DNA from: Gammaproteobacteria bacterium
GTDB taxonomy: Bacteria; Pseudomonadota; Gammaproteobacteria; Steroidobacterales; Rariloculaceae
Direction: 5' to 3'
NCBI GenBank assembly: GCA_003155415.1
Contig: PMCP01000137.1
Coordinates: forward strand, 4,527-62,481
Length of the DNA: 57,955 bases
A program made the translations under genes and the position numbers. This document shows, one piece after another, positions 23,713 through 24,760 of this stretch (within the stretch, counting starts at the first letter, position 1; each line of letters opens with the position of its first letter). The notes beneath the pieces were generated by a model. It did not search any database. It was given only the letters and a program-made list of their open reading frames with translations, and had not been told where the DNA came from.

Positions 23713-23777
23713 TTTTTCCCGCGCGGTGCCGCGCGAACCCTTGACACTTCTTGACCGCCTCACCGAAGTTCGAGCCC

Positions 23778-23865
23778 TATACTTCTGTTCGCTTTGAAGA
23801 TTTCCTCCCCGATTGGAGATCTTGAAGCCCCCTGAAGAGCTCGGCGCAAGTCGGGCTCTTTTTTT
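23778..23865 (+). ncRNA. Possible small RNA ending at a strong terminator
   Basis: Between tRNA-Glu and the DUF6152 gene is a stretch that could be transcribed as a separate RNA of about 75-80 bases. TATACT at 23778-23783 could be a -10; TTGACC (23751-23756) and TTGACA (23741-23746) lie upstream but at poor spacing (21 and 31 bases). The predicted RNA has a first imperfect hairpin (AAGAT, CTCC pairing with GGAG, ATCTT; about 23796-23824) and then the terminator stem. No reading frame of note is present. It could equally be read-through from the tRNA. Confidence 0.35.
23835..23865 (+). terminator. Intrinsic terminator with GCAA tetraloop
   Basis: AAGAGCTCGGC (23835-23845) pairs with GTCGGGCTCTT (23850-23860), an 11-base stem including two G-U pairs, closed by a GCAA loop (23846-23849). 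Seven Ts (23859-23865) follow on the plus strand. It ends transcription from tRNA-Glu or from a small RNA gene; the minus strand has no T-run. Confidence 0.85.
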
Positions 23866-23899: not shown

Positions 23900-24262
23900 C
23901 TAAAACTCCGTCCCGTCCTTCAGGATGAAGTTCTTCACGTAACCGCCGTCCCCGCCCTCGCGGAGCGGCGCAATCTCGATATTGATCGTGTCACCCGGAT
24001 GAACCATCTCGGGCCGCCAGCCGCGCCGGTACACGTTGTTGCGGCTGTGGCCTTCGAACTCGACCACCCGCGCGCCCTTGGCATCCTTGACCTCGAGGAA
24101 CAACGCCGTGTGCGGGTTCGCGATACGGAGTTCTTTGACCACGCCCTGGATCTTCACTGTCTGGCCGAAATCGAATTGCGCGGCGGAATGGTGCGCCCAC
24201 GCCCCGCTCGCCACCGCCAACAGCACGACCGCAACCGCTACCGAAATCACTCTGCTTGCCAT
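23900..24262 (-). CDS. DUF6152 family secreted protein
   Basis: A 120-residue protein with a signal peptide (residues 1-~23, ending GAWAHH) and a small beta-rich domain: QFDFGQTVKIQGVVKELRIANPH near the front and VKNFILKDGTEF at the end. This is the DUF6152 pattern, a periplasmic or exported family of unknown function. A leading HH after the cleavage site may bind metal, which is inference. ATG 24262 was chosen over TTG 24277 because GGAGGA lies at the correct distance before it. The leader carries a terminator-like hairpin directly abutting this site. No neighbour shares its strand closely. Confidence 0.75.
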   Translation of the reverse strand: MASRVISVAVAVVLLAVASGAWAHHSAAQFDFGQTVKIQGVVKELRIANPHTALFLEVKDAKGARVVEFEGHSRNNVYRRGWRPEMVHPGDTINIEIAPLREGGDGGYVKNFILKDGTEF

Positions 24263-24283
24263 CAAGCGATCCTCCAAAAAGAA

Positions 24284-24316
24284 ACGCCGGCGTTGACTTT
24301 AGATCAACGCCGGCGT
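24284..24316 (-). terminator. Terminator-like hairpin in the DUF6152 leader
   Basis: Thirteen-base perfect arms, ACGCCGGCGTTGA (24284-24296) and its complement (24304-24316), enclose a seven-base loop. On the minus strand the stem runs straight into TTTCTTTTT and then the Shine-Dalgarno GGAGG of the DUF6152 gene. It therefore has all parts of an intrinsic terminator, placed inside the gene's own leader. Attenuation is inferred. Confidence 0.75.
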
Positions 24317-24760
24317 CCCACCCCCCCATTACTCAGGTGCGCGCACAGACTGTCGGCTCGAGAACCGACGCGCCACGCGCGCGAAATGCATTCGTAAAAT
24401 GATGTCGCGTCGAACCACGAACGCTCAGAGACATGCCAACGGCCTAATTGTTCTTTTTATAGCGCCGAAACTCAGCATACCGATTTCGATCCGCCCTCAC
24501 GCGCCCTGCCTCGGGCGACTGTTGTTAGCTCGTGGCGGCCGACGATGGCACACCCACGCTCTCATCCTTGAGGGAGGACCCGGCTCGCACCAAAAATGCG
24601 CGGCCTCAATGGTCTGACACCAAGGCTAACAGAAAGAACGCTGAATAGTTACACCCGAACCGGCTGGTCTCGCCGGATTTCCTCCAAGCACCTCACGGCG
24701 CGCACGGCGCACATCCGCTATCCTGGTTTTATCCATCTTTTTACATAGTCTTGAGCTCGG
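24317..24760. other. Gene-free spacer upstream of two divergent genes
   Basis: About 440 bases with no credible gene; short frames here have no family resemblance. It should hold the leader and promoter of the DUF6152 gene on minus (a TATAAA at 24461-24456 is one possible -10) and the promoter of the 24761 gene on plus (TACATA just before it). A C7 run sits at about 24320. A short CCGGC/GCCGG repeat near 24660-24676 has no T-run after it. Confidence 0.5.

Follow-up and report, generated by a model that had tools for sequence, protein, structure and literature searches.

A predicted intrinsic terminator adjoining the Shine-Dalgarno sequence of one of about 68 DUF6152 genes in a Rariloculaceae genome

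We report here the unusual placement of an intrinsic terminator in a 57,955-nucleotide stretch of a gammaproteobacterial genome (the window), where a perfect stem-loop and the T-tract that follows it run directly into the Shine-Dalgarno sequence of a gene coding for a DUF6152 protein. The minus-strand element at 24316-24276 is, as judged from its sequence, a genuine factor-independent terminator, and we regard it as a strong terminator of the ordinary kind whose location is unusual. We propose that it is constitutive and leaky and that the DUF6152 gene is weakly expressed by read-through, a reading to which we give a probability of about one half; termination in the cell, its non-conditional character and the start of the transcript are the parts of it that we infer. 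The features concerned are as follows.

23900..24262, minus strand: DUF6152 gene, 120 aa, with a signal-peptide-like N-terminus and its ATG at 24262-24260 (PF19649 match, ORF list)
24269-24263, minus strand: spacer TCGCTTG, 7 nt
24270..24275, minus strand: Shine-Dalgarno sequence GGAGGA, adjoining the T-tract (read directly)
24276-24283, minus strand: T-tract TTCTTTTT, directly 3' of the stem (read directly and terminator scan)
24284..24316, minus strand: predicted terminator stem-loop ACGCCGGCGTTGA-TCTAAAG-TCAACGCCGGCGT, perfect 13 bp (read directly, folding and hairpin scans)
24316-24304, minus strand: 5' arm of the stem, ACGCCGGCGTTGA
24303-24297, minus strand: loop, TCTAAAG
24296-24284, minus strand: 3' arm of the stem, TCAACGCCGGCGT
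24333..24434, minus strand: 33-codon ORF with a weak Shine-Dalgarno sequence, ending 16 nt before the hairpin (ORF scan)
24456..24461, minus strand: weak candidate -10 element TATAAA, with a poor -35 element TCGGTA (PWM)

The hairpin is as the initial annotation of this DNA had described it, with a perfect 13-base stem, a seven-base loop and a T-tract, and the coordinates and composition given there are correct; the 13 pairs are all Watson-Crick. The tract had been written as TTTCTTTTT, and although it is real, that count takes in the last T of the stem; the tract proper is TTCTTTTT, with T in seven of eight positions. The hairpin alone, with one inner pair, folds at -25.8 kcal/mol, and the terminator scan extends it to 17 pairs by adding outer G-U and G-C pairs. 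The leader of the DUF6152 gene folds with a z of -3.5, none of 200 shuffles being equally stable. The hairpin at 24316-24284 is the longest perfect one of the window, and the terminator ranks strongest in a census of 458 kb, about 12% of the genome, which relied on simple pattern matching and ORF criteria in place of a gene caller. When the window was Markov-shuffled 20 times, three of the shuffles contained a 12-13 bp stem by itself, but the chance expectation for a stem of 11 bp or more combined with at least six T in eight positions is about 0.07 per 458 kb. The stable GC-rich hairpin, the short loop and the U-rich tract directly after the stem are those of an intrinsic terminator, and because the T-tract is on the minus strand only, with none after the stem on the plus strand, the terminator would be directed only at the DUF6152 gene. 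We rejected a repeated or mobile palindrome, since the hairpin sequence occurs a single time in the 3.9-Mb genome and is absent from viral contigs; plasmid and phage searches gave no similarity to the region.

In a DNA-level model, a protein would instead bind the 33-bp inverted repeat as its operator, and the T-tract would be there by coincidence. No mismatch interrupts the repeat, and both arms carry the self-complementary ACGCCGGCGT, the two copies lying 23 bp apart. However, the 12-mer AACGCCGGCGTT is found at just one other place in the 3.9 Mb, apparently within coding sequence, so that there is no other intergenic half-site and thus no sign of a regulon, and a T-tract on exactly one side suits a terminator. 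We consider an operator highly improbable.

The form of the element is shared with intrinsic terminators in general (a GC-rich stem, a short loop and an immediate T-rich tract on one strand) and with those behind genes elsewhere in this genome. We checked the gene context of 12 of the 23 census matches outside the two strong ones of the window, and in 11 of the 12 a stop codon on the same strand precedes the terminator by 7-33 nt, while the twelfth is at a contig start; the form seen in the window is thus the ordinary terminator form of the genome. Some of these 12 closely precede another gene. At locus L130 (contig C135 of the same genome, 5979-5930, minus strand) a terminator follows another DUF6152 gene and stops 25 nt short of the ATG that starts a gene for citrate synthase (PF00285, 397 bits; Shine-Dalgarno sequence AAAGGA), and this is a second terminator-to-start junction with little promoter room. 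A terminator adjoining the next gene is therefore less remarkable in this genome than it looks, and such a junction with a Shine-Dalgarno sequence should not be equated with a riboswitch until the frequency of close gene packing in the genome concerned has been checked. The window terminator differs from the usual ones in that no same-strand gene ends nearby upstream, and the Shine-Dalgarno sequence of the next gene adjoins its T-tract. The nearest upstream same-strand ORF end is that of a photolyase gene (minus strand, 25423), 1,103 nt from the hairpin, and two plus-strand genes (a hypothetical and a GNAT gene) lie between, in agreement with the earlier statement that the next minus-strand gene is more than 1 kb away behind two plus-strand genes.

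The DUF6152 gene is intact, and its product matches DUF6152 (PF19649) at 80.1 bits in a profile search with a cut-off of 27. The initial annotation had placed GGAGGA and the ATG together with no gap, and the Shine-Dalgarno sequence does adjoin the T-tract on its upstream side, but a normal 7-nt spacer precedes the ATG. The accompanying suggestion that the stem hides or exposes the ribosome-binding site fails on geometry, as GGAGGA lies outside the stem.

The promoter search modelled sigma-70-like sites only, and none reaches nine of 12 matches. Neither that scan nor the PWM recognises a promoter between the hairpin and the Shine-Dalgarno sequence, and the transcript that carries the latter therefore most likely starts upstream and crosses the hairpin. 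Passage through the terminator had been presented as compulsory, where we hold it to be most likely. The best PWM match overlapping the hairpin (TTGATC-17-TTTCTT) would have its start inside the Shine-Dalgarno sequence. The parallel claim that no promoter fits holds for recognisable sigma-70-like promoters, but the lack of room is not special, as the citrate synthase gene illustrates. The gene may nevertheless have a promoter of its own, of a type other than sigma-70, that overlaps the hairpin. Farther upstream, the TATAAA candidate at 24456..24461 has about 130 equally good matches in the window; it would, as a weak prediction, give a minus-strand transcript of about 170 nt ending at the terminator.

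These considerations bear on a second model. Here the terminator would close an independent small RNA gene within the gap at 24.3-24.76 kb, or would end antisense read-through, and the DUF6152 gene would be transcribed from a separate promoter that overlaps the hairpin DNA and initiates in the 3' arm. A transcript initiated there would have a hairpin-free leader of about 30 nt. Terminators of this strength are few here, and neither of the two in the window has a protein gene upstream of it, the second one being preceded by tRNA-Glu. However, no sigma-70-like promoter fits the required position, no Rfam RNA is found in the gap, and the gap DNA is not conserved among the 21 further family genomes, and we find this arrangement rather unlikely. 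6S RNA was considered as the owner of the terminator and rejected, as it was not found anywhere in the assembly.

In the constitutive reading that we prefer, the terminator would stop most of the transcription that reaches it on the minus strand. The RNA concerned could be a short leader without coding function or a small RNA, initiated at about 24.33-24.8 kb, or else antisense RNA running on from the photolyase gene. Read-through would supply the mRNA for the DUF6152 protein, and the terminator would act as a constitutive attenuator or insulator that holds one of about 68 DUF6152 copies low. We favor this reading both because the stem with its T-tract is far beyond chance and the strongest in 458 kb, and because the terminator has the ordinary form, close spacing occurs elsewhere in the genome, and an antiterminator, an Rfam family and conservation were all sought and not found. 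Counting against it are the lack of an upstream same-strand gene end to mark, with the nearest 1.1 kb away, the weakness of the upstream candidate promoters, and the possible non-sigma-70 promoter over the hairpin.

The initial annotation had instead proposed conditional antitermination, in which an uncharacterised RNA switch, a leader peptide or a protein site opens the terminator on a signal. Leader attenuators and the expression platforms of transcriptional riboswitches do have their terminator at the same position, directly before the Shine-Dalgarno sequence of the regulated gene, and according to PMC7815308 premature 3' ends within 5' UTRs, mapped by term-seq, are common in E. coli, so that this kind of element is already known; the window terminator would likewise place a 3' end in a 5' UTR, here as a prediction. 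The present leader nevertheless differs from attenuators and riboswitches in that no antiterminator, no aptamer, no conservation in the 21 family genomes and no regulatory leader peptide was found. Pairing of the 5' arm with upstream sequence gains -5.3 kcal/mol, as against -25.8 kcal/mol for the stem, and 133 of 200 shuffled upstream sequences pair with it equally well; the competing upstream stem that the annotation proposed to look for is thus no better than chance. An Rfam scan at gathering and permissive thresholds placed only tRNA-Glu above its gathering score. The leader DNA has no match in plasmids or phages, or in the 21 other family genomes, although these include none of the same genus and non-conservation at such a distance is weak evidence when taken alone.

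The 33-codon ORF is the other element that could speak for antitermination, with its weak Shine-Dalgarno sequence and its end 16 nt before the stem, a gap that resembles the gene-to-terminator distance elsewhere in the genome. Its GC3 is 0.53, however, versus 0.73-0.83 for the neighbouring genes, it has no homologue below an E of 0.09 outside its own locus, and it is probably non-coding. We rejected leader-peptide attenuation through this ORF on the grounds of this composition, the absence of a run of regulatory codons and the want of a convincing homologue. Conditional control is thus possible, with the position of the terminator as the single positive pointer to it, and we judge antitermination doubtful overall. 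If control were conditional, it would offer a handle on the signal and the role of one protein among the roughly 68 copies of a family of unknown function.

The DUF6152 family provides a further comparison. A profile search finds 68 PF19649 matches in the genome, a 3.9-Mb draft that is 82% complete, and none in 14 control genomes; the window protein has, among the matches listed, dozens in several relatives of the same family, but the order's other families have few or none. DUF6152, a family of unknown function, has thus undergone a large lineage-specific expansion, and no paper naming it was found in the open-access literature searched. Leaders could be read for 67 of the 68 copies, and many of the genes follow the end of a preceding ORF by about 50 nt or less, in an operon-like fashion. 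By a loose rule, three of the 67 leaders have a hairpin with T's, the window copy included; it has 17 pairs, and the other two are weak (6 and 9 pairs), each lying over 55 nt ahead of the start codon. Among these 67 leaders and about 30 from other genomes, only the window copy has a terminator at the Shine-Dalgarno sequence. The nearest homologues (up to 57-58% identity) are included in the 30, lack the terminator and have different neighbours. Conservation of the stem across homologous leaders, which the annotation had put forward as a check on its proposal, is therefore not observed, and together with the results on the leader this leaves conditional antitermination unsupported. A lineage-specific, uncharacterised leader RNA switch that conditionally opens the terminator, and so singles out one of about 68 paralogues for signal-dependent expression, is in our view quite improbable.

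The DUF6152 gene is flanked by tRNA-Glu and pcnB on one side and by the plus-strand hypothetical/GNAT pair on the other. tRNA-Glu and pcnB adjoin each other in most family members checked, and the DNA beside them varies between genera with one possible exception (L085; genome G013, contig C386), in which the tRNA-Glu/pcnB flank in a different genus resembles, by eye, another DUF6152 gene. This site may have received DUF6152 copies more than once.

We also note an element on the plus strand at 23741-23865, between tRNA-Glu and the DUF6152 gene, which has a TTGACC-N-TATACT-like sequence, a CCTCCCC stretch and a strong terminator at 23834-23861. It has no counterpart in the relatives searched, and the Rfam suhB/mmgR models reach 20 bits on it, below the cut-off of 41. 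The element could encode a small RNA about 80 nt long, although 23834-23861 may simply be the terminator of the tRNA. Its TCCTCC is complementary to the GGAGGA of the adjacent DUF6152 gene.
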